64,000 nucleotides of DNA. It comes from Antennarius striatus (lineage: Eukaryota > Chordata > Actinopteri > Lophiiformes > Antennariidae). A program made the translations under genes and the position numbers. Shown here in pieces: positions 131 through 62,302 of this stretch. Under the pieces are notes generated by a model that saw only the letters and a list, made by a program, of their open reading frames with translations, made no database searches and was not told the origin of the DNA. The DNA lies in NCBI RefSeq assembly GCF_040054535.1, contig NC_090796.1:9257001-9321000 (forward strand). Direction: 5' to 3'. Positions within the stretch are counted from its first letter, which is position 1, and every line of letters begins with the position of its first letter.

Positions 131-3100
131 ATGAGTGCTGGAAGACCTTCGGAGGGCCTGGGTTCCATCACGTGGTGGGGCCTCAGTCCTGCGCGCAACC
201 TGCTCAGAATGGGTGAGAGCCAGGGTCCACACCTCACTGAACACATGAGTTCAAACAATGATGGAAATTATAGAAGTACATTTACTGTATTTCATGTTTT
301 ATTAATTCTATTCCATGTAAATTGGTTATATCTTTATTTCTCTATAATTAAATATTGTGTTGTTGGTTTACTACCTTCATTCTATAGCAATAGCCAATCT
401 CAGATTAAACATTTGTGTTTTCAAACTATAATACTTACTTAAACTGTACTAAGTAACAACAGGCTAAATCAATCAGTTAAAATTAGCTTTACCTCAACCA
501 ACTGCACCTTAACATGGGACAATATTTACATGAAATCTAAAATTATGAATTAAACACCAACATTATGAGTGACTACTTTCACTTTTGACATTTGATGTAC
601 ATTTTTTAACACCTTAATCTATATTGATTTAAATGTAAGTTTGAATGCAACAAGTTTTGTTGTGATGGAATGTTTTGTAGAAAGCATGAGCTTTGTGTTA
701 TGCTGTTGGACATATTAAAGCAACAGAACAAAGAGGATGATGGGTTTTACTGACTCAATGTACACTGACCCAAACAAATTACTTTTGAACACTAAAACAC
801 TCAGTATACTGTGAACAAGATATATAGATGAGTTATATTCACTTAAACAAATAAGTTGGCTATAACTTCCCACTCAAAACAACACCAAGAGTCAGCAGTA
901 ATATCCTTTCGAGTGTCAAGGTTGATGTATAGAATATTAAAGTACCTATCATTTTGTGCATTGAATTTTATGTAAATATAAAATTGATTCCATTTTTCTT
1001 TCTGTTTTCTGTTTGTCCTGTTATATAACAGAAGTAATTTATGCTCTCTTACTTTGCTCAGGTCCTGTGAGACCTGAAGGAGAGGTTAATGTTTTGCTAG
1101 TTGGCAGTGGCGACCCACGACATATTTTGAAGACCATCGCCAGTTTGCAGATAGAAGAGAGGCTCCATGTGAGTCTCCATTACATAAATTGCTTTGTGAC
1201 CACTAACAACAAATTGGTGCACTTAAACCCATCTTTCCTGTGCTTTAGGTGTGGGTGATTGAAAGCAGCATGGAGGTCATGGCTAGACAGCTGCTGCTCC
1301 TCTACTTAGCACTGATGCCCCCGGAAATCATCGGAAACAATGGTGCGTGGGATTTTTTGAAAGTACCAAATTTGGATGTTTTCAAAAAGGAATCATGAAT
1401 AAAGCTAAATATTTGGGCTATCTTGTCATGGTTTCCATTTTCAGAGAAAACAGAGATTTTTCTGGATGTGTTTGGAAACAGTGAAATCCGTAGTCAAACA
1501 GAAGAGACTCTGAGACATGCAGCATCACAGCTCTCCCTGATGGTGACTGAAGCACTGGAAACACCTGCGCACTCTTGTCTGAACACAACTCTTCTCAAGG
1601 TACAATCATTTGTGAACCTGTCATTTGTGCCTCTTCATGACCATATTATCATACCATTTTTATTCAAACCTGATGTTGAGACCTGCTCAATCAAACTGCA
1701 TGTGGTCATCAGTACATTATAGCTTTGCTAGCGTGCTGTGAGTTTTGTAGAAGTCTACTCATTTCGTACTCCATTCACTCATTTTTTCAGTTCAAGGAGC
1801 GAGATGAGCTGTACAGGATATTCAAGTTATGGATCCAGCCTGAGCCTTCATCGCCCATCGTAATGTCCAAAATCTGGGATTATCGGGTCAGGCAGCACCT
1901 TGGAACGCGGTATAACTCCAAAATTGGCTGTTTTGATTGGGACCTCACAATGAAACTGCATGAGAAGGGGGTACTGGAATATTTTACAGTCCGTTGTGCA
2001 TAATTGAACTGTAGACTAAGCACTTTTCATGCTTACACTGTATATAGCGTTGACTGATGGTCATTTTATACCAACTCTAATGACGACAGAGTGGTGTCAT
2101 CAACAAACAACAATACGTGCGATGGAGGGAGCGGGGTTTGGCTTTTGAAATGAGGGAAGGTGTCTACCAAATAACCAATCAAAGTCTTCTGTCTTCAAGA
2201 GTGTTCAATCGGGTCAGTGTTTGTCTGCTTTTTTAATCAGGTTGTTTTTTTCCCCATTTTTAATGGAATACAGCAATAGGAAGGAACTTGTCTTGTGTTT
2301 GTGTACAGAAAGGTGACAAAGTGGCTTTCCGGGGCTACTGGGGAGACATCGTGTCCAGTCCTTACCTCGCCTTTGGTATTGAAACTGATGACAAGAGCCT
2401 ACTGAAGACACAGAATGGGCAACACATCAATGTAAAATACACAGTCATGACATCCTTAAAGTGCCACAAGTGTTAACTTGAGTATACTCAGGAACATACA
2501 GTATATATGTACAGTATACAGTATACGTGTGTGTGTGTTTGCGTGTGTGTGTGTGTGTGTCATATGTCATAAGTCTTGTACGTCATCTCTTCTTTTCCTC
2601 TCATCCACAGACAGCTCAGGATATCTCCTTTTCAAACGTTCAGGTGTTACTGCAGTCTTTTTCCAGCAGACGAAGCTACCCCACGTCTTCTCAGTCAAAT
2701 ACAGAGACGGACGAATCGTCCCAACAGACTGACCGTAAATCCTTCACCATTAATGGTAACACAGTATTAACATTAGCAGACCTGTAGCTTCAGATGATTG
2801 TCACTTGTCACTGTGCTGTTTAGTGCCCATAAGAATCCACTGGTGAATTAAACTCAATAGTTGTCATAGTTGTATTTTTTTTATTTATTATTCCTCATCA
2901 GATTTGATGCATCTGAAGGGAATCTCGGTCACCTTCCTGCCTTTGGATTCACTTCAAAAATTGCCAGAAAAGCAGACGTACTCCAAACTTTTCAATGCCA
3001 TCTACTTCTCTGCCAGGTGAGAGTTTTTCTTTACATAAATATACATGTAAGTATGTATGTTAAAACCACATCCCACTGTCATCCAGCCACCTCAACAGTA

Positions 3101-4108: not shown

Positions 4109-6570
4109 TCACTTCCAACGTCCTCCAACTTTGCCTTTACCGTGGACCTTTTTGCTGCATTGACACAAGAGAGAATAGTGAAGTTGATTATTGAGAGAGA
4201 GCATCTATACAGAAATAACAAACTTTAAATTATCTTGCAGACAGGAAAGTAGTCACATTTTTCTTTCTGTTTCCTCTGTTCATATTCTAGACGTGTGCAC
4301 CCTGTTTTGGTAAATGTTTCAGAGCTGTAAGTTTGGTGTTTCCTATATGTTTCCTGTATGTCTATTTGTGACTGTGTCTGTTGTCGATGTTTGCACTGTC
4401 GACACAGAGTTACAAAGATCAATGCAGGTTGACTCACAATTTCTGAGCGTGTTGGATTCTGTTCAGGAGGACGTTGATCTGGAAAAAAGAGATCCTAATA
4501 TCACAAAACAACATTTTTGAAAAACCATTCCGTTGGCTCTCACCTTAATGGCTCACCTCATATTTCTGCCTCTTCATCTTCTCAGTTAAGTCAAATTTCT
4601 CAGACTCCAACTCATAGATGCATTCCCATATCTCTTTTGCTCTCTCTCTAGAATCGGACAGCATTTAAAAACTTCAAATGTACTTTGCAGAAGCTTTAGA
4701 TGTCATGCGTCTGACATGATATTCACAACAAATGATCAAATAATCAAACACTCAAAAATTTAGCTCAAATTGTTTGATAATGACTGACCTCAGTGCTTCC
4801 TCTCTCAGATTCTCAATTGCCAGTGGCTTACGTCTCTCTGCCAGAGTCTTCTTTTTGATCTCCCTTGCAGTTTGCCTTTTGCCTCGTCGCTGCTCTACCT
4901 GCAGGAAACAAACTCAACTCAGGATGAAACACAAGAACCTTCAGGGGGACATGGGAAATGAAATGCTCCCCTGTTTCTGAATGCATTATACTGACTTTTG
5001 CCAGGAAACCTCCAAAATGAGCCCCCATATTGGAGAGCACTTTCTTCTTCTTGGCCTCATCATCAGCCCTTTTCTTGGCCTCTTCATCCTCCTTTCTCTG
5101 TCTTTCCTCCTGTAGAAATAATTTTTTGCAAATTAGTACCCTATACTTCAAATTACTCTTTTACTGTTAATAAGGGGTCTGAACAGATAACAGACATATA
5201 CAGATTACAAAACAGATGTTTACATAATGTCAAACATTAATTACTGCAATACGTGTCTGACGGTCTCGCTCTTTTTCAGCTCTCACACGCTGCTGCTCGG
5301 CTCTCTCTGCCCGACGATTCTCCTATAACAGAAAGCCAGCTGGTCTTAAAAACATGGCTGTTTAATCACTATTATTCTGAATAATTAAAGGATCTCCCTA
5401 TCAGGCAAATAACTAGCATTACAATCCTATCTTTGAGTCCAATCAGCTCTTCTTCCTCTTTTTTCCTGTGCTCGAAGTGGACATCGATCAGAGTCTGCAG
5501 CTCCAGAAGATCCTTTTCCATCCTTTTTCTGTGGATATCCTGACAGGAGCCAGTGGATACACAGATTTAGATTATTAAATGCTGTGTCCCATGATGTAAT
5601 TGTGTAAATTTTCCACTAACAACAATCTTGAAGGATCATACGTCAAAGTCGACTCGTTCCCCCTCAGGGATTTTAGGGGCAGAAAGCTGTGAGACCATTG
5701 GCCTGTAAAAAAACATTCAGAAATTTCAACCTAGATTTTATTTATTTATTTTTTTAACTGAATATATTATACAGTATTATATAAATGAAGTACTTTTGGA
5801 TGTTGCATATTCATGTGTAATCTTACTTGTATTTGGGGCGCTCTTCTTCAACATGACAGCAGGACCAGCAATGAAAAGGTGATCAGCTCATTTTTTTTAA
5901 AGACAATTAGATTTGAAAATAAGCTAAAATATATTTTTAATCAACATAGAGAATATTTTAATTCGGTCTTATCTCCTGGAAAAAATAACCATTTATTCCC
6001 ATGACCTGTGTAACACATATAAATAATCAACAGCTTGTTATACCCTTAATGCGCTCAAAGGCAATTTAACCTTAAATTTATCCTACTCATTTTGAATTTA
6101 TTTAAACTAGATGTTGTGTTTTACAGTCCTACTGATTGAAAATATGCAAAACATTATCTGGTAGCTCAAAGGTACAAATAAATACCGGATGGATTACAGT
6201 ATGTAAATCAATATTTACATTTTGAAGGTTATCCTGTGGATTTGCTTCCAGACTGGTTGCCTCTGTCACTTGTGTCAAAATGTGCTTAGAAAGGTCAATA
6301 AAATCACCACAGTAGAGCAGAAGAGTCTCACCTCCTTCTCCCTGCTCTTCATCTTCTTCTGGAGGAACAAAGATCACTGAGTTTGGAAAAATTCGACTGC
6401 TGTTTTATTTTGTTAGTGATAAATGGTTTTGCTTACCCTCGTGATGTCCTCTAAGTACAAAAAAAGAAAGGAAAATATTCATACCACATACTACAAACCT
6501 CCTGTATTATGAAAATGGCAAGATTTATGAACAAGACGAGAGCTCACCGATGATCATCCAAATCAGACAT
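4109..6570 (-). CDS. tnnt1: Troponin T, slow skeletal type (12 coding exons)
   Basis: Troponin T anchors the troponin complex to tropomyosin on the thin filament and passes the calcium signal to it. Coding exons, 5' to 3': 6570-6548, 6450-6437, 6358-6332, 5845-5827, 5702-5642, 5539-5423, 5322-5245, 5109-4996, 4898-4789, 4647-4557, 4478-4438, 4154-4109. Phases close to give 246 residues. The short acidic N-terminus (MSDLDDH, then EEDEEQGEG) is followed by the tropomyosin-binding helix ([19 protein letters not shown]), the [15 protein letters not shown] signature, the TnI/TnC-binding coiled coil ([20 protein letters not shown]) and the terminal [10 protein letters not shown]. The first exons are microexons of 14 to 27 bases, typical of the alternatively spliced troponin T N-terminus. 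Assignment to tnnt1 rather than tnnt2 or tnnt3 rests on the short N-terminus and on the DNAAF3 neighbour. Confidence 0.93.
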
Positions 6571-10261: not shown

Positions 10262-10430
10262 GGCGTCACTATCTAATATCTATCTAATATCTATCTAATA
10301 TCTATCTAATGTCTATCTAATATCTATCTAATATCTATCTAATATCTATCTAATATCTATCTAATATCTATCTAATATCTATCTAATATCACACACACAC
10401 ACACACAAACACACACACAAACACACAGGT
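10262..10430. repeat. 11-base minisatellite (CTATCTAATAT unit) plus CA run
   Basis: About eleven tandem copies of an 11-base unit, CTATCTAATAT with one GT variant, run from roughly 10270 to 10390 and continue into a CA-rich tract. Read on the minus strand the units are ATATTAGATAG, sitting where the simple-repeat tail of the adjacent minus-strand SINE is expected. The array therefore probably arose by expansion of that tail. Confidence 0.9.
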
Positions 10431-10672
10431 GGCCTGTACGCATGCAGAGCAGGTAGAGTGGCGGGCAGCTCCTTTATTGGTGCGCCCCAAATGAGCAACT
10501 TGTAAGGGGGATGGCGCCTTGCTCAAGGGCGCCTTGGTGAGCTGACACCTCCCACTGTCAGCTCACCTCCGGGTGTTCTTTTTGGGCGGGAGCGGGAATC
10601 GAACCGCCGATCAATGAAACATTGGACGACCCGCTCTACCTCACGCTCTACCACTGAGCCACTGCTGCCCCT
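10430..10672 (-). mobile_element. tRNA-derived SINE
   Basis: On the minus strand the element starts near 10672 with a tRNA-like head: an A-box-like TGGCTCAGTGGTAGAGC and a B-box GGTTCGATTCC, the internal RNA polymerase III promoter elements. The body contains CCCTTGAGCAAGGCGCC followed by ACAAGTTGCTCAT, which recurs in a related copy at about 60116-60165. The tail runs into the simple repeats at 10262-10430. The head directly abuts the LINE fragment at 10680-11210. Confidence 0.7.
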
Positions 10673-10679
10673 GTTCAAG

Positions 10680-11210
10680 ATAGACTTAACTTTAGACGTG
10701 GTCCTGCTCTCCAGAACTGTCTCCACAGAGTCCAGGCTCAGCCCGACCACTGACCCCGCTCTGCGGATGAGTCTGTTCAGACGGTCCATATCTCTTTTCC
10801 TGGCCCCACCACCCCAACACACAATGGCGTATGACAGCACACTGGAGACTACGGACTGATAGAACATGAGAAGGAGCTTAGGACAGATGTTGAAGGAGGC
10901 CAGCCTCCTCAGGAAGTACATCCTGCTCTGCCCCTTCTTGTACACACAGTCCGAGTTGAGTGACCAGTCCAGTCTGCTGTCTAGCTGCAGTCCCAGGTAC
11001 TTATAGTTTCCTACCACCTCCACCTCACTGCCCTTGATGATCACCGGCTGTGGAGAGGGAGGTGCCCGCCGGAAATCCAGCATCATCTCCTTCATCTTGG
11101 AGACGTTGAGCTGGAGTTGGTTCTGTTGGCACCACTCCACGAAATCAGCCACCAATGCCCTGTGCCCCCCCCTCATCACCCTCCCGGATACATGCCACAA
11201 TTGCAGTAGA
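10680..11210 (-). mobile_element. Non-LTR retrotransposon fragment, end of reverse transcriptase
   Basis: On the minus strand a long open frame encodes the C-terminal part of a LINE reverse transcriptase. Recognisable pieces are FVEWCQQNQLQLNVSKMKEM, NYKYLGLQLDSRLDWS, VYKKGQSRMYFLRRL and YAIVCWGGGARKRDMDRLN, which are typical of fish L2/Rex1/CR1-like elements. The endonuclease and catalytic palm are missing, so the copy is 5'-truncated and inactive. It abuts the tRNA-derived SINE on its 3' side, suggesting a composite or nested insertion. Confidence 0.85.
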
Positions 11211-11359
11211 AGAAGGTAGAAGGGTAATATTTTAATTCCATAACTAGTACTACATTTTAGACATTAACCCTCTTCCTGTTCCTGTGTAATAACAGATCTA
11301 TTTATTTATCTATTTGTGTCACATCTTACAACATTTATTGGTTTATTTTCTAGAAACAC

Positions 11360-13313
11360 ATGCTCCGTGTGCTGACGTTGCTGCTAGCTTCAGGTAAGTA
11401 TAAGGGTAAAATAATGAAATAATGTAATATTAATCAATAAACTTTTATTTGGTGCATGTCTTCAGTAAATACTAAAAACGGTATCATTAGGGTTTACAGG
11501 TTACATTCTTTGAATGTCACCCGGTGAAATTAAGCTTTACTAAGCAAAGATTGTTGTAACTGGTTTTAAACTTAAAATTATATAATGAATTAAAAGAGGA
11601 GAGTAAAAACATTGCTTATGTGTTTAGCATGTCACACACAGAATTAGAATGCACACTGTTCTTTACTTGATGGTTTGTTTGTGTCCCTCTGCAGGTTGTG
11701 GCACTTGGAGTTCACAATCTCGAGTGTACACAGTGATAAATCGCTATATGTCATGGTCAGCTGCCCGGGAATATTGCAAAAACAACTACAAAGACCTTGC
11801 AGTCATCCACAATCATGATGATATGATGGAGATGACAAAAGCGACACTAAATTTCCCCCTCAGTTTATTCTGGATTGGTCTGAGAAGAGTGGATCAAATT
11901 GTCCATCCCTGGATGTGGTCTGAAGGACTAAGTCAGACCAGTGATGAATCAGCTGAATACACCAACTGGATTAATACCCCCAATTATCTACAAAACTGTG
12001 GAAGCTTCTTGATTGATGGAAAATGGATGGGTGAAGGATGTGAACATAGACTTCCCTTTATCTGTAAGCACAGTAAGCATGACATTCAGATTTTTTTTTT
12101 TGTACAAAAAATTAAATGTAAAAATGAGACATTGAGATTCAAGAGGGGCTCTTGACATCCAGAGTCAAGTTTCCAAGCAACAGACTGGGAGCACACCAAC
12201 CACTCCATGGGAGAAAGTTTCCTGTGTTTCTACTGAATACCTCAGTAAATTTGTTTAATGGTGCACAAAAAGATGGGGGAAAATTATTATAATTTTAGTA
12301 TTTATTTTGATATTATTCACCAAGTGGAAACATGCAATACAAAACCCTACACACACTGAACTTAAAGTTGTGTGGCCTTCACTGTAAAAAGTCCGATCAG
12401 ACACACAGTTCAATGAGTCAACCAGTCAGTTCTATTCCTTGAAGTTGTATTCTGTATGAAATTGCATTATGGGAGCATTATTAATGACAACCCAGGAAAT
12501 AAAACTTAACATTTTTCTAACTTCACAGGCGCAGCGCCCAGTGGGATACAAATTATCCCTGTAACGTTAACCTGGAGGGAAGCCCAAGTCTATTGTCGAT
12601 TGCACTCTATAGACTTAATCACTGTGATGAGTGAAACTGAAAATCAGGCTTTAGAGGAAGCAATTCATCAAATGATGCCTACAATTGTCTCTCCATATTG
12701 GATTGGTTTGTTCAGAGATGATTGGAAATGGACAGACCAGACTGCAAACTCCTTCAGAGACTGGGCGATCTCTGAGCCAGATAAAGTTGATAGATGTGCT
12801 ATAATTACAAACACCATTGTCAAGATGGCTGCCAATTCCTGTGAAGCCGCTCATTATTTCATCTGCTATAATGGTATGTACAACCACTTTTATTTTTGTT
12901 GTTAAGAAAAGAATGCATTCCTTCTGTCATCCTAAGCATGATGAGATCTAACAAAATTGAATCCTAATTAATGCGATGCTGTATTTTTTTCTTTGTAAAG
13001 AAATAGAAGAGAAAAGAGAACAAATTGTGAAGGTGGAAATTGCATCAAATTCAGACTTGGAATTCAGTGACGCCGTTTTGAGTGAAGCCATTTTGACCCA
13101 GGTAAGTATTTGTCTTGTTTAAGCTGTTTTCCTGTTAGTAGGAAGTGAGTGTTGATACACCTGGAGGTCAGGAAGTTTTTTGTCAATAAATGTTTTGCCT
13201 TTCTTTGACAGATCCAAAACAAATTTGAAGGGGTCAACATTCAGTGGAGAATTCATCCCGATGGGAAAATTTTCCACAAGAAGGAAAATAAGAAAATCAA
13301 GGAAGAGTGCTAG
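11360..13313 (+). CDS. C-type lectin-like protein with two CTLDs (5 coding exons)
   Basis: Exons 11360-11393, 11695-12072, 12529-12873, 13001-13101 and 13212-13313 join in phase to 319 residues. Exon 1 encodes a short hydrophobic leader (MLRVLTLLLAS), suggesting secretion. Exons 2 and 3 each encode one C-type lectin-like domain. CTLD1 has MSWSAAREYC, FWIGLRR and the last Cys at LPFIC; CTLD2 has LTWREAQVYC, YWIGLF, WKWTD and HYFIC. Neither domain keeps the full calcium/mannose motif: CTLD1 lacks WND, and CTLD2 has EPD in place of EPN and no WND. The C-terminal ~67 residues are charged and have no membrane segment. This looks like a lineage-expanded fish lectin, probably a soluble recognition protein with no predicted calcium-dependent sugar binding. 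I give no gene symbol. Confidence 0.85.
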
Positions 13314-14887: not shown

Positions 14888-17800
14888 CTACAAGTCTTTC
14901 TTGACTTCTGGCCGACTCACTTGCGTCTTGCTGGGTTTTTTTTGGTTGGGGCTCAGCAGCTGCATCAGGTCTTGTAGGGCTTTTGTTATCTGTGCACCAA
15001 ACTTATGAGCATCCTATAGCAGGAAAGGAAGAAATGAGATTGTAAATGTTTGTAGGAAAAGCATAATATTCATTTTAGAAATTTGGAATTCAGGTGTTTT
15101 TTTTCAACTTGTAGGTCATCCAATTTTTTATCTGCCTGAGAGTGAATGAATTTCTTGAACAGTTTCAGAGCTTTGTCATAAGTTGACACACCTCTAAAAA
15201 GTACAGATTTATTCAACATCATAAATTAGAGGACATATATACATGATGAAAGAAATAATAATTTTTCCCCATCTCTCTAAATTGAAGCATTTTCAAATAT
15301 GTATAGCGTAACGTGAAAAAAACTAAAATCTGGAGTTAATTTTGTTCATGTTTCTTGTGCTACATAAAATGACTTCTTTTAATAAACTCACAGTCTGTGC
15401 ACACGAGTGCTTGCATGAGATGTGGAAATTAATCACAGTATCTCCCAAAATGGCATAGGACACCCCATAACCATCATCAGACACCTGAAAGAGATATCGA
15501 AAATATTTGTACAAATGGATGGTCAATGAATATCACAGCATGGATATGTGCAACATTTTAGTAAGTTTAAACTGAAAAAAATTAATAAAAGTTTTTTCCA
15601 CTGGGAGATAAAACCTGAAAGTGTTAGGGTTAGGATTAATTCATAGAACTATTAGAATTTAATTTGTTTATTTGTGGTTTTTCCCTGACTTGAACAGTTA
15701 AACGACTAGTGTGGATTCAAATAATGAGAGCTGCACTGACAGGTCCAAATCCTCCTCCACAGGACAGGTACTCTAGGTGGTTGACCATGTCGTACAGCTC
15801 CAGCAGCTGGAATGGAGTCTGGCTGGTGGACAGGTGCCACTGCTCAGACAGTACCTGTAATAACAAGAAATTATTGAATCACTTTCCTTAAGAATCTCTG
15901 TGAAAAACACTCATTCTGAACTGGACACTGTCACACAAATAAATGACAAAGGAAGGAAATAAACCTCTTTCAAAAAAGGCGATTCCACTCCAAGGTATTT
16001 CGATATCACATAAAGGCAGAAGAGGTGTCTGTCGATACCAGCTCCAGTCATAGCAGTGCGGTATAGATGCTGGTGCTTTTCTGCTGCTGTGTGGAACAAA
16101 CGCCTACACACATCTGCCACCTAGTGGAGAATGACGTGAACTGCATGAGAGCTTGAAAACCACACATCGAAGGAATTTATGCTTGAAATAGTGAAAACTG
16201 GAATCAGACATTTGCAATGTGGAGTTATTTTGATGAGAACATCTTCAAGCATTCTCTTCTGGCATGCTATATATTTACTTAAATATATGATAAATACTAT
16301 GTAGTATATACTATATAATATATACAATATGATTGAAAATAGGAGACAAGTTCCCTGGTCTTACATCTCCACCCTCCAGCGCTCGGATGAAGGCACAGCT
16401 GTCACTGGTACAGGAACGAACAGTCTCGGTCCTGCCCTCCCTGAACAGACGAGTCATGCAGGATTCATAAGTCAGACAGAACTTCCTCTGGTCCTGGATT
16501 GAAACAAAAAACCAACATGGCCCTGATAATATTGACAGCGTATAATTTCAAGATGTCCACATAGTATAGACCAAACAGACAGAGCGCGTGCCCCTTCAGA
16601 GGGAGGCTTACCCTGTAGTAGGCCAACTGAAGAGCCATCTGAATGAAGGCGTTTGGACTGACTCGACACTTCTTGATTTTTCCTTTACCAAAGTCTCGGA
16701 ACACAATAACATGTAAGTCCACGTCATCAGCCAAGGCTTGAGCCACTGTCAGAGACTGAGAGATCTGCTCCTCACACTGAGAAAGACACAGACAAACAGT
16801 TAACACACCAAGACTGACATAACTTTAAGCAAATCTAGAGTCCTAGATAATAAGGAAGAGTAGAGTGATGAGCTGGTGTGTGCACTTTTGGATAGACCTG
16901 GGCTTGATTCTTCTTCCTTCCAGTATTAATGCCATGTTAGGTCAACGACTGATCTTTTCAAATATAAATAAATAAATCAAATAAATTAACAAATCTTAAA
17001 ATATGAATAAATAAAAATATTTTAAAAAATGAATCTACCTAATACATATTAACATATAAACATATTTCAAAACTTTGGATAAAAATAATTAAAATCAACC
17101 TATAATGCTGTCTGTGATTTGGTGAACGACTCAATGTGGCGGTAATAGACGACTCACTTCAGGAGGGATTTCCCATTCAAGCTTCTGTGGTTGTGGTAGG
17201 GATGAATCCACTTCTCCTTTACAGTGACCTTCTGTATTGTAACCCAGCTGGAAACAGTCGATTGCCAAAGTGTACTAGAACACACAACGATAATGTGATC
17301 ACATCTTCTCAGCACCGGACTACAACAGTGAGCAACCAACGTCAGGTTCCTTACCTCCCATAAGTGTGATACCACCGGCACATCCGCCCACGAGTGCTCT
17401 CCATTTATGCCACTCTTTCCATTCTTGTAGTAAATGACTGAGAAGGACTTGTCAAACCACCTGCGTGACAACAAAGTACAGGCAGTACAGACCTACAACA
17501 ATATAACTGAACTACATTTTCATAACTTACACCATATAAGTTGTCCATAAGACAGCAATCAGTTTTGTGTACCTGTCATAACACTTCCCGTGCATCAAAG
17601 ATTTGGCGTAGGAATCTAAACTAGCTGCTGGATCATCCCCTATGATGCCTTGCTCGTCGTCATCTAGAGTCACAAAGAAGGCAGCTTTCTCTATGCAGTC
17701 TAGGGACCCTTTGTTGACCCCACTGCTGAAAAACTTCATCCTGGCTTCAGCCCAAGGAATTCTGGGAAACAATAACGAGTAAGTAATGGCAAAAAATTCA

Positions 17801-20800
17801 GGATGAGCGTGACGTAAACAATGGTGGCTCATCAAACTGACCTGTCTCCAGCGGTCAGAGCCCCCAGATTGGCCTCTCCTTTGGAAGGAGGCGAGGGATC
17901 ATCAAGTATCCTCTGAATCTGGAATTCAATCTCTCTCGGGGAAAGGAGCCTGCCAGCCTGGTAGACCGTCAGATGAAAGTAGCGACCCCTGTGGTACACT
18001 GCAACATAGTCACTATCCTGCCAATGGTGCACAGTGTCTTTGCACACAGAGAAGGGAAAAGAGGAGAAATATGTGACTAATTTGTTAACTAAATCAAACA
18101 CATGAAGACACAAAGCTCAGCCACCAAAATAAAGACTTCAGACTCACATTATTATTTGAACTGCTTTTAAATCTGACAACTTCATACTTAGAAAAAACAG
18201 CCTCAATTTAAGACCCTACTTCAAAAACAGATGAATTGTTCTTTACTAACACTCTTTACACCTGACCTTCTGCAGTGACATCACACACTGGCCACACGCC
18301 AAAGGAAAGATGTCATTTGTATTTTTTACACTGACTAACAGGCTGGCTGTCAAATTTTGGCTCATTAATTTGACGGAAAAGCAACATTTACTGAACATGA
18401 GACAGGGTGTACCAGTGTCTTTAAACATACATTGTAAAACATTATTAATATCTACATTGGTTTGACACTTCTAATTCTCGGATTAGGAATACTGTGTAAA
18501 AACACTAATACTACCTGTAAGTGTTCCAGGGATTCGACAAGTGTCAAACATCCGCTCAAACTGATAGGAACAGCAAGGAACTGCAGACCTCAACAAGCAC
18601 TGAGGAGGATAAAGAAAGGATGGACCGGTGAAAAAATATGAGAAACAAATAGAGGAAGCAGAAAGGGTGATAAAAAAATTAATACAAGACATGAAATAGA
18701 AGGTTAACCAGGGAAGAGAGGTAAGAAATGACCAAATACAATGTGTGATCAGAATAATCAAGGCATTAGTGAGAGATGGACCCTATTCTGAAAATCCTGA
18801 GGTAAGACCAGAATGCTGGAGGAAACACATGAGAAATGACAGGATGGGCTGTACAGCAGACGTATCACGACTCGATGAATCACAGTGGTGTGTTTCTTGA
18901 GACCTTACACACATAAACACACATTACACAGTTTTTCCACAATGTCCTTTCTTGTATTCTAAGTCTTTACGATTTACATCTTCATTTAGCATCATTATCT
19001 CTACAGCAGTGCTGTGCTGGTATTGCTCACTAAGGAGCCAGGAGTTGGTGCAGGTCAGCATAACTGGTCATGTTCAGACAGCGTCATGTATCAAATATCA
19101 GCACTCTGTGAAATGCCATGTATCCACATGTATGTCTAAGTGAGTGTACATAACTGTACATGTCTTTACCGGTCTCCTATCCAGGAGTGCGAGTGGTGCT
19201 GAGCATCCTCTCACAATGAGCTGCATACAAGGGAATTACAGTGCCTGAGGTACGACTCTGGGAAACGAAGGCAAAAGCAAAGGAGAAAAACAGAGGACAG
19301 CAGTGGAGGACACGGAGAGTCAAGCAAAGAGACGAAGAATGTTTTTTATAGAGTGACAGCAAACAAGGAAAGTAATGACGAGAAATCAAGCAAGCAAAAG
19401 GGAGGCCAAAAGAATACAAAAGCAATGAGACAGAGATGAGCTCAGGATGACGACATGAGCGAGTTGTTGTCATATAAGCATGAGATGAATGGATGAATAA
19501 ATGTTCTCTTTTCTACCAGTAAAGACACACAAACATCGATGAAACAAAACACTGATGTAATATCCCAACTGCTCAAAATTTTTGACACAAGAAAATGAAT
19601 GTCTCTAAATGTGTGGAGCAGCGGAGTTTAAGCTGTGGCTGAACTCACAGGTTTAATCTCTTCTTTGTTGAGTTTACAGCGGTAAAGGAAGAATGCATGA
19701 ATGGTGTTGCCTGCTCTGGCTGCCTGGATGGGGGTGGGTGTCACATACAGGAAGTCCTAGAAAGAAACAGTGATGTGAGGTTAGAAGGTAGAACGTGTGT
19801 GTATACATAAATCCATATTATATATCCATATTTTATATACACACACACACACACACAAAACTACCCATCAAATTGATGTAAAGATTTGTATACCATGCCA
19901 TAATAGTTACTGTTAACCATAATTGGGCTGCGTCCACGTAGGTAAACATATTTCTCCCACCAGTCACTAACCTGAAGAAATAAAACACACAATTATCTTC
20001 ATGAGGAACTTCCTTGCATATTCAGACAGGATAAATAATTTAAACCACCAAATGTCTCAGATAAATACATTGATAATAGAATTTTAAATTTTGTTTGGAC
20101 TGCCTTGCTTTGGACATTTCAGTTATGACATGGACATTATGCTTGACCACTCACATAGTTAGTGGCCAAAACAGCTTTGAGTTTGAGGTACCACTGCAGG
20201 CGGTTGCCAAGGCTGCTCTCAAACTCAGCTGCAAGCTTGTTCATGTGTTCATACTGTGTGTCATCCATCAGCGGCCGCACAGACTCCAAGTACTGAACAG
20301 AAGAAATGCAGAACACAAACAGAAAAGGATTAAAAAAGAGGAACTAAAAGGGCTGGTTTTCTAACAGAATAGCAACCTATAATTCTGCAGAAATAATACC
20401 GGATAACTTTTCTATTCCATCTACTGTCATCCATTAAATATCCATTAAATATATATCAATTGTAATATCTAGCACATACCACATAAGAATGTGAGAAAGT
20501 GATTCATGTGCTTCATGTTATCTCACCCTCTTCACTGTGTCCTTGATGGCCGGCACAGGCAGGTTTGGCAGAGAACCCTGGTAGCTATAGAGCTGAGGCT
20601 TTCTGCCAGAGAAGATCCGCACCAGAGCCTGGGATTGAAACATTAAAAAAAATCATTTTGAATCATTTTAGGCAGCAATGCAGGACATGCCATAAAGTAT
20701 TTTTCATATGAAAATATGATTTTTAAATGCGCCCCATGCAGGAAAAAAGTGTGGTAAACTGTTTTTAAGCAGCATAAATATTAAAATTGTGTAATATTTA

Positions 20801-21768
20801 GTAACATGAGAAATATATAACTCCTAAAAACAGACACAACATTAAAATAGATATGAAGAGCTTATATCATAGTGTGATATCTAAATGTGTATGTGAACAG
20901 AATTAAAAAGTCAGGATTCAGGGCAATAAAGTGTCACAGAGACAAAGGCATAATTAGTTAACAGGAAACAAATACAGGAAAACAAACTGACCACCCAGAC
21001 TTTGGTGGTGTTGGACATCTTGCCGTGCTGCTCAAATATCCATCGGTGGTAGGAGAGGAGCTGCTTGAGGCACAGGCGCATGGTGAAGATGAGCAAGAGC
21101 CACAGCATAGTGCTGAAGAGCACTGCTGACACCAGCGCCTGGCACTGGGTACTCATAGACTGGCTGGGAACAGATGGATAAAGTAAGTGTCAGGTGACCA
21201 AATGTCAGCAGAGAACACACACATAAAAGAGAAAGGTTCAACAGGATGGGTGTGTGGTATCTTCAGAATGAATGGAAAAAAGAGAACTGGAAAGTCCAAC
21301 CATCAACTTGAACGATAACAGTGACATGCATTACCTGACTGGGAGGTGCTCCTGTATCTTGGCTATAAGTCCCATGGAGGGGTCAGAGCGAGTGTACATA
21401 GTAGCCAAGATTGCTACAACAACAAAAAGCCAGGAGGAAGGACTTGCAGGATATACACCTGTTATCAAGCTGTTCTGTTCATGTGAGACAGGAGACACAG
21501 TGTTGAAATGCGTTCACATGAAACATTGAATGGTTCTCACTCACATTACTTGTAGAAGTAATGGAAGTGATGATGGAGCAACATGAGGATACCCAGCCAA
21601 CAGGTACACAGGATAGAATATAGATACCTTGAATCGGATGATGTGCTTCTTCCAGGAACGCAGACCAGAGAGGTAGATCTCAGTGAAGGCCTGGTGGGAG
21701 AGCTGCACATCGGGGCCCTCTGGGGTGACGGTGAACTGGAAAGCCACCGCTTGGTGGGCTTCTGCCAT
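14888..21768 (-). CDS. cpt1c: Carnitine O-palmitoyltransferase 1, CPT1C-type (18 coding exons)
   Basis: CPT1 enzymes sit in the outer mitochondrial or ER membrane; CPT1A and CPT1B transfer long-chain acyl groups from CoA to carnitine. Coding exons, 5' to 3': 21768-21628, 21474-21335, 21163-20992, 20628-20527, 20292-20155, 19971-19894, 19756-19649, 18599-18515, 18037-17842, 17761-17573, 17460-17355, 17274-17158, 16776-16612, 16493-16365, 16120-15965, 15854-15741, 15484-15392, 15013-14888; they close to 784 residues. MAEAHQAV keeps the Glu3/His5 malonyl-CoA residues, two membrane segments follow, and GEHSWAD holds the catalytic His. Several stretches fit CPT1C better than 1A/1[41 protein letters not shown], and the extended Lys-rich C-terminus. 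The PRR12/BRSK1 linkage agrees. A duplicate of coding exon 8 with a stop lies at 19170-19257. Identification as CPT1 is very firm; the 1C label is less so. Confidence 0.9.
18515..18599 (-). other. cpt1 exon 8B, intact copy of a duplicated exon
   Basis: This 85-base exon has good sites (CTCAG acceptor, ACAG then GTAGTA donor) and encodes [14 protein letters not shown] then [11 protein letters not shown]. It joins phase 0 from exon 7 (EEIKP) and phase 1 into exon 9 (TVHHW), giving the full-length enzyme. It is one codon shorter than the corresponding human CPT1A/1C exon, with the gap just after the RIPG motif. Confidence 0.85.
19170..19257 (-). pseudogene. cpt1 exon 8A, duplicate exon with in-frame stop
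   Basis: This 88-base block between exons 7 and 8B is a second version of the same exon. It encodes [19 protein letters not shown] then RTPG, homologous to human LLGSTIPLCSAQWERMF...RIPG, and has the ancestral 88-base length. It keeps an acceptor (TTTCCCAG) and a donor (ACCG then GTAAAG). The codon after RTPG is TAG where relatives carry an amino acid, usually acidic or basic. Use of this exon would truncate the protein before the catalytic half. It is either a dead exon or a regulated poison exon. Including both 8A and 8B (173 bases) would break the frame. Confidence 0.8.

Positions 21769-48333: not shown

Positions 48334-62302
<13,969 letters not shown>

Follow-up and report, generated by a model that had tools for sequence, protein, structure and literature searches.

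Genes and features of the window

The DNA analyzed here is a stretch of 64,000 nucleotides (64 kb) from Antennarius striatus, referred to as the window, that carries a cpt1 gene on the minus strand. The following features were located in it:

965 to 2000, plus strand: exons with Pfam domains DUF4470 (E 1.9e-25) and DUF4471 (E 2.7e-8), which we take to be domains of DNAAF3
4831 to 5160, minus strand: troponin exon (Pfam Troponin, E 6.7e-8), resembling, we assume, slow troponin T
10269 to 10390: 11-bp tandem repeat, 11.1 copies, 98% matches
10526 to 11263, minus strand: open stretch of 246 residues with the Pfam label ALKBH8_N, presumably, from the look of its letters, the terminal part of a reverse transcriptase encoded by a retrotransposon
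11628 to 12902, plus strand: two C-type lectin domain exons (E 1.9e-13 and 6.8e-14), located between the troponin exon and cpt1, both of which lie on the other strand
14888 to 21768, minus strand: cpt1 coding region of 18 coding exons, with the ATG at 21768 and the stop at 14890 to 14888, encoding 784 amino acids when exon 8B is used
51281 to 59584, plus strand: proline- and serine-rich open stretch of 1585 residues with exons after it, presumably PRR12-like

One of the exons after the proline/serine-rich stretch gave a weak match to DUF4211 (E 6.5e-4), below the curated cut-off; in human, PRR12 lies near CPT1C. Direct reading and a script agree that every junction of the cpt1 gene is of the GT/AG type and that the frame is open with exon 8B. 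The spotted handfish Brachionichthys hirsutus has the nearest protein (P0002), which contains the Pfam domains Carn_acyltransf and CPT_N and is identical at 700 of 784 residues, with exon-by-exon identities to the window of 73 to 100%. In a tree built without exon 8 from 20 rows (19 fish and the window), the handfish is sister to the window with a support of 100/100.

The public records name the relatives' proteins "liver isoform". The neighbours of the gene point elsewhere: Dnaaf3 is found at the zebrafish Cpt1ca locus, and both Tnnt1 and Dnaaf3 at the elephant shark Cpt1c locus (Lopes-Marques et al., PMC4589379, excerpt), and the DUF4470, DUF4471 and Troponin exons of the window reproduce that neighbourhood. 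Since dnaaf3-like and troponin exons lie beside it as at the published Cpt1c loci, the gene is likely a cpt1c/cpt1a2 paralogue. The gene model P0142 of Liparis tanakae has cpt1 and troponin domains fused.

Two versions of exon 8 lie in tandem

The part of the gene between exons 7 and 9 contains two versions of exon 8, named 8A and 8B in the order of transcription:

19649 to 19756, minus strand: exon 7, ending at 19649 in phase 0
19170 to 19257, minus strand: exon 8A, A-type, decayed, 88 nt, with AG acceptor and GT donor
19177 to 19179, minus strand: in-frame TAG of exon 8A, when reading on from exon 7
18515 to 18599, minus strand: exon 8B, B-type, intact, 85 nt, AG/GT, open
17842 to 18037, minus strand: exon 9, starting at 18037, with entry in phase 1 from 8A as well as from 8B

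From relatives we built an A-type query of 37 residues and ran it against the 64 kb. Its two best matches were 8A (E 8e-11) and 8B (E 2e-5), and the next one had an E value of 0.37. This result indicates that the homology of 8A and 8B is beyond chance, and that the 64 kb contain no further copy of exon 8 beyond chance by this query. The two exons are adjacent, share their phase and are flanked by the same exons 7 and 9. Moreover, the coding sequence measures 2358 nt with 8A and 2355 nt with 8B, both divisible by three, versus 2270 nt with neither and 2443 nt with both, which are out of frame. The frame can therefore be kept only by using one of the exons at a time. A sequence-only reading of this DNA had proposed two homologous exon 8 versions in tandem, 88 nt with an in-frame TAG and 85 nt and intact, each fitting the phases alone and shifting the frame when joined; the query, the re-read coordinates and frames and the lengths above bear this out. 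As the TAG prevents 8A from being protein-coding in A. striatus, the pair appears to be here a former, now one-sided, mutually exclusive pair.

Both versions of exon 8 are annotated in other ray-finned fishes

We collected 203 proteins of relatives from three overlapping homology searches (the best 120 of 1940 matches, the best 120 of 172 and all 28, respectively) and sorted the segment between exons 7 and 9 by its length, with no residue filter. This segment has 29 residues in 88 proteins and 28 residues in 53. The 62 proteins with neither length, partial or irregular models, were left out of the A/B counts. Four more were set aside for an odd start (one of the 88, which is a B form, and three of the 53, which are A forms), leaving 87 regular A and 50 regular B proteins. 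Thus, among the matches listed, the A-type segment occurs in at least 87 and the B-type segment in at least 50 annotated ray-finned fish proteins, and at least 24 species have both.

Outside exon 8, the A and B proteins of four of these 24 species are identical, i.e., over all 755 aligned residues in Eucyclogobius, 756 in Doryrhamphus, 760 in Gadus macrocephalus and 730 in Dunckerocampus, and inside exon 8 they share 13 to 15 of 29 residues. In 18 species, the two proteins are 94 to 99.7% identical outside exon 8, with clustered differences that we provisionally take for gene-model noise, and in the remaining two (Muraenolepis, 67%, and Odontesthes, 75% outside exon 8) A and B come from different genes. 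These protein records show that the A and B exons are annotated as alternative isoforms in other ray-finned fishes, exactly so, with exon 8 as the sole difference, in four of the 24 species. This overturns the earlier statement that no vertebrate example was known.

The B form is also present in the spotted gar (P0093), which lies outside the teleosts; the gar is known by this form alone, its A form not being among the matches listed. The reedfish protein (P0203) has a B-like stretch in a model with an odd insert. A search directed by the gar B form returned 28 matches, 26 of them from teleosts, with many A forms; no cyprinid B form was among these 28, which does not imply its absence. Since A and B segments are common to many ray-finned fishes, with the gar included for the B form, the exon pair is old. 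The gar and teleost lineages split more than 300 million years ago, and the gar B form would imply a greater age than this for the pair. Among anglerfishes, no A-type protein was found in the best 120 of 172 matches of the search with 8A, handfish included; in the B protein of the handfish, the start is altered.

In many public models (P0002, P0029, P0057, P0159 and others) the exon-8 segment begins with VS, as would result from reading through the GTGAGT donor at the end of exon 7. The exon pair seems to be difficult for annotation pipelines: 62 of the 203 models were irregular or partial here. The AlphaFold models of the Eucyclogobius isoforms X2 and X1 have a mean pLDDT of 46.2 and 45.6, respectively, and the entire exon-8 stretch is below 50 in both.

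Exon 8B is conserved and exon 8A has changed

The sequence-only reading had also assigned the ancestral length to 8A and described 8B as the more diverged copy; the comparison with relatives reverses both assignments. All 50 regular B proteins have, like 8B, a B form of 28 residues, and 8B can be aligned ungapped with carnitine acetyltransferase (1nm8, 1t7n) from the preceding proline through the following aspartate. Exon 8B of the window is one residue off the B consensus, at its first position, where it has a state unseen in the other B proteins; some of these have up to seven unseen states without being broken. In contrast, 8A is seven residues off the percomorph A form, carrying the stop and six missense changes in 29 codons. 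This rules out that 8B is a diverged, shortened copy: of the two exons, it is 8B that has been conserved and 8A that deviates.

The position of the TAG is a glutamate in 77 of the 87 A-type relatives. Six of the seven changed states of 8A are absent from these 87 proteins, two of them at positions that are invariant there, and in a leave-one-out comparison over 47 distinct intact A sequences no sequence had more than four unique states. The seven changes over 65.3 nonsynonymous sites correspond to a divergence of 0.107.

The exon-8 segment is the equivalent of residues 294 to 322 of human CPT1A. We checked this numbering against the fish A isoform P0078 at 18 human CPT1A positions, namely the catalytic histidine and 17 positions of disease changes; at 15 of them, P0078 carries the same residue under the same number. 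C304, T314 and R316 of human CPT1A map into exon 8, and the exon switch hence falls in the stretch of the CPT1A-deficiency changes C304W, T314I and R316G, of which C304W nearly abolishes the activity (PMC10076611, excerpt). At the equivalent of C304, exon 8A of the window has a tyrosine. Since six missense changes, including this one, accompany the stop, the decay of 8A goes further than its stop and cannot be put down to one sequencing error.

Long AG-free pyrimidine tracts precede both exons

Upstream of each exon 8 acceptor there is an unusually long stretch without AG:

19260 to 19440, minus strand: AG-free, pyrimidine-rich tract of 181 nt before the 8A acceptor
18602 to 18782, minus strand: AG-free, pyrimidine-rich tract of 181 nt before the 8B acceptor

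The AG-free zones of the other 16 cpt1 introns measure 18 to 128 nt, and none of 2000 dinucleotide shuffles reached 181 nt for either 8A or 8B. On the minus strand of the 64 kb, these two tracts are the longest AG-free stretches, the next one having 152 nt; one of 206 nt occurs on the plus strand. Pyrimidines make up 77% (8A) and 76% (8B) of the last 180 nt versus 50 to 65% in the other introns, those shorter than 180 nt being taken whole. The acceptor tract of 8A, with 15 pyrimidines out of 17, is among the strongest in the gene.

The combination of a long AG exclusion zone and a long pyrimidine tract that goes with a distant branch point is thus present at both exons. The intron between 8A and 8B has 570 nt, and its AG-free zone starts about 390 nt from the 8A donor. 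Since any branch point in this zone would be far from that donor, steric exclusion is not expected: with a 570-nt intron that ends in 181 AG-free nucleotides, no branch point would be predicted near the intervening donor, where it could block the joining of 8A to 8B, and exclusion by a short intervening intron was rejected.

We also considered whether the survival of the AG-free tract of 8A could be taken as proof of selection on this exon. At a divergence of 0.10, the probability that the tract survives under neutrality is 0.25 without transition bias and 0.35 with a threefold bias, and the argument was rejected.

Proposed fate of the two forms

We consider it probable that the cpt1 gene of the window, likely cpt1c/cpt1a2, carries a predicted mutually exclusive exon pair of which 8A is broken and 8B intact, so that the A form has likely been lost and the B form alone is made. 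In other ray-finned fishes, both versions of exon 8 would serve as alternative isoforms. The choice between them is likely set at the two long AG-free pyrimidine tracts, through competing polypyrimidine-binding factors and distant branch points, and the frame rule, together with the decay of wrong products, would be a likelier guard than steric exclusion. In A. striatus, the 8B mRNA would yield the full-length enzyme. Any residual 8A mRNA, with its stop in exon 8 and ten coding junctions downstream, should be directed by the standard rule to nonsense-mediated decay.

CPT1 acts as the gate of fatty-acid oxidation, with malonyl-CoA tuning its activity. Because the segment corresponds to residues 294 to 322 of human CPT1A, the A and B forms would likely differ in their handling of substrate or of malonyl-CoA. 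The fish A and B isoforms provide natural enzyme pairs that differ in 29 residues only, which allows a direct test of the role of this stretch, and a lineage in which one form has been lost shows the consequence of a fixed switch.

Some observations count against this reading. The A/B isoforms of the relatives are known from annotation, in which 62 of 203 models were irregular here. In addition, 8A has kept its splice sites and its AG-free tract, which is not required of a dead exon, although neutral drift would preserve them with the probability given above. Finally, 8B of the window has one unseen state, at its first residue.

The integrity of the 8A splice signals leads to the main competing explanation, i.e., that 8A is a selected poison exon whose regulated inclusion lowers the output of cpt1 by nonsense-mediated decay, perhaps in the tissues that formerly used the A form. 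A stop upstream of the last junction, the strong acceptor tract with 15 of 17 pyrimidines and the 181-nt AG-free zone that has been kept are all consistent with such a role. However, the 87 intact A forms of other fishes indicate that the exon was formerly coding, and the survival of the tract fits neutral drift (probability of 0.25 to 0.35 at a divergence of 0.10), so we regard a poison exon as unlikely, even if a selected poison exon and a remnant would look alike in one genome alone. The sequence-only reading had left the choice between a poison exon and a decaying remnant; of these, the remnant is the better reading, and the poison exon gained no positive support. A still weaker case can be made for a sequencing error or a rare allele in a species whose A form still works. 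The TAG is one base away from GAG, presumably the usual codon given the consensus glutamate, but 8A has six more missense changes in its 29 codons, five of them unseen in 87 relatives and one at the equivalent of C304, which makes this explanation very unlikely. As for the whole cpt1 gene being a pseudogene, an idea that the stop in 8A alone could suggest, we give it practically no credit: no stop interrupts 8B or any of the other 17 coding exons, and all of them are in phase and bounded by GT/AG sites, which rules it out, and the exons are conserved against the handfish at 73 to 100% identity. A one-sided exon pair, with 8B in use and 8A a remnant, is the reading that we retain below.

Comparison with known exon pairs

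Mutually exclusive pairs of homologous exons are well known; what is new here is a vertebrate CPT1 member of this class, with one half broken in one lineage. Splicing of fish cpt1 as such is not new either, since goby CPT I-alpha-1a cDNAs are said to be splice products of another cpt1 gene. Several of these cDNAs are cited in PMC5713373 (excerpt). We have found no earlier description of the fish pair in the open-licence literature on fish or insect CPT1 splicing, mostly judged from listings, and a word search of the main text of PMC4589379 gave no occurrence of "exon" or "splic".

The pair resembles the tandem exon substitutions of vertebrates (PMC9741552, excerpt) in that the homologous exons are adjacent, have like phase, are old, would be used one at a time and would fine-tune one stretch of the protein. 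That survey deals with human events and its main text, when searched, does not name CPT1, whereas the present pair is from fishes and has one member broken in A. striatus.

Exons 4a and 4b of OGDH (PMC7969005, excerpt) are the closest parallel for the splice signals: they also form a mutually exclusive pair in a gene of mitochondrial metabolism, with a long AG exclusion zone and a long pyrimidine tract. According to the same source, long AG-free zones with distant branch points enforce mutual exclusion in OGDH, and genes with mutually exclusive exons often have giant pyrimidine tracts. The systems differ in that the OGDH branch point is near the donor of the intervening intron, whereas the cpt1 intron has 570 nt and both exons have a tract.

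In insects, alternative splicing of the single CPT1 gene (whd in Drosophila) yields two forms, which in the fly differ in kinetics and tissue (PMC7767417, excerpt). The fish gene would likewise produce two CPT1 forms by alternative splicing, and the parallel holds if the fish forms differ too.

Possible origin of the exon pair

It is conceivable, although we consider it rather unlikely, that the A/B pair predates the vertebrate Cpt1 duplications, i.e., that an ancestral gene had the exon 8 switch, of which Cpt1a kept A, Cpt1b kept B and fish Cpt1c kept both. Hints in this direction are the gar B form, the B-like stretch of the reedfish and the agreement of the B length with that of carnitine acetyltransferase. 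A further hint is that human CPT1A presumably has the 29-residue form, and CPT1B and CPT1C the 28-residue form. If this were true, the liver and muscle CPT1 enzymes would owe part of their regulatory difference to a splice switch that became fixed in separate genes, and the switch of insect CPT1 would be either a parallel or a kin of the vertebrate one.

A second cpt1 copy forms its own clade in the tree (P0132, P0140 and P0141, from Gadus morhua, Muraenolepis and Odontesthes, "liver isoform 1"), and in these three proteins the A-type exon alone was seen.

The last four codons of the cpt1 gene of the window (14891 to 14902, minus strand) encode KKDL, of the di-lysine (KKXX) type, and a KKXX C-terminus is present in 127 of the 131 fetched fish proteins longer than 770 amino acids. 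The KKXX tail is an endoplasmic reticulum (ER)-retrieval motif. Given these fish tails and the residence of mammalian CPT1C in the ER (PMC4589379, excerpt), the ER location of cpt1c may predate mammals.
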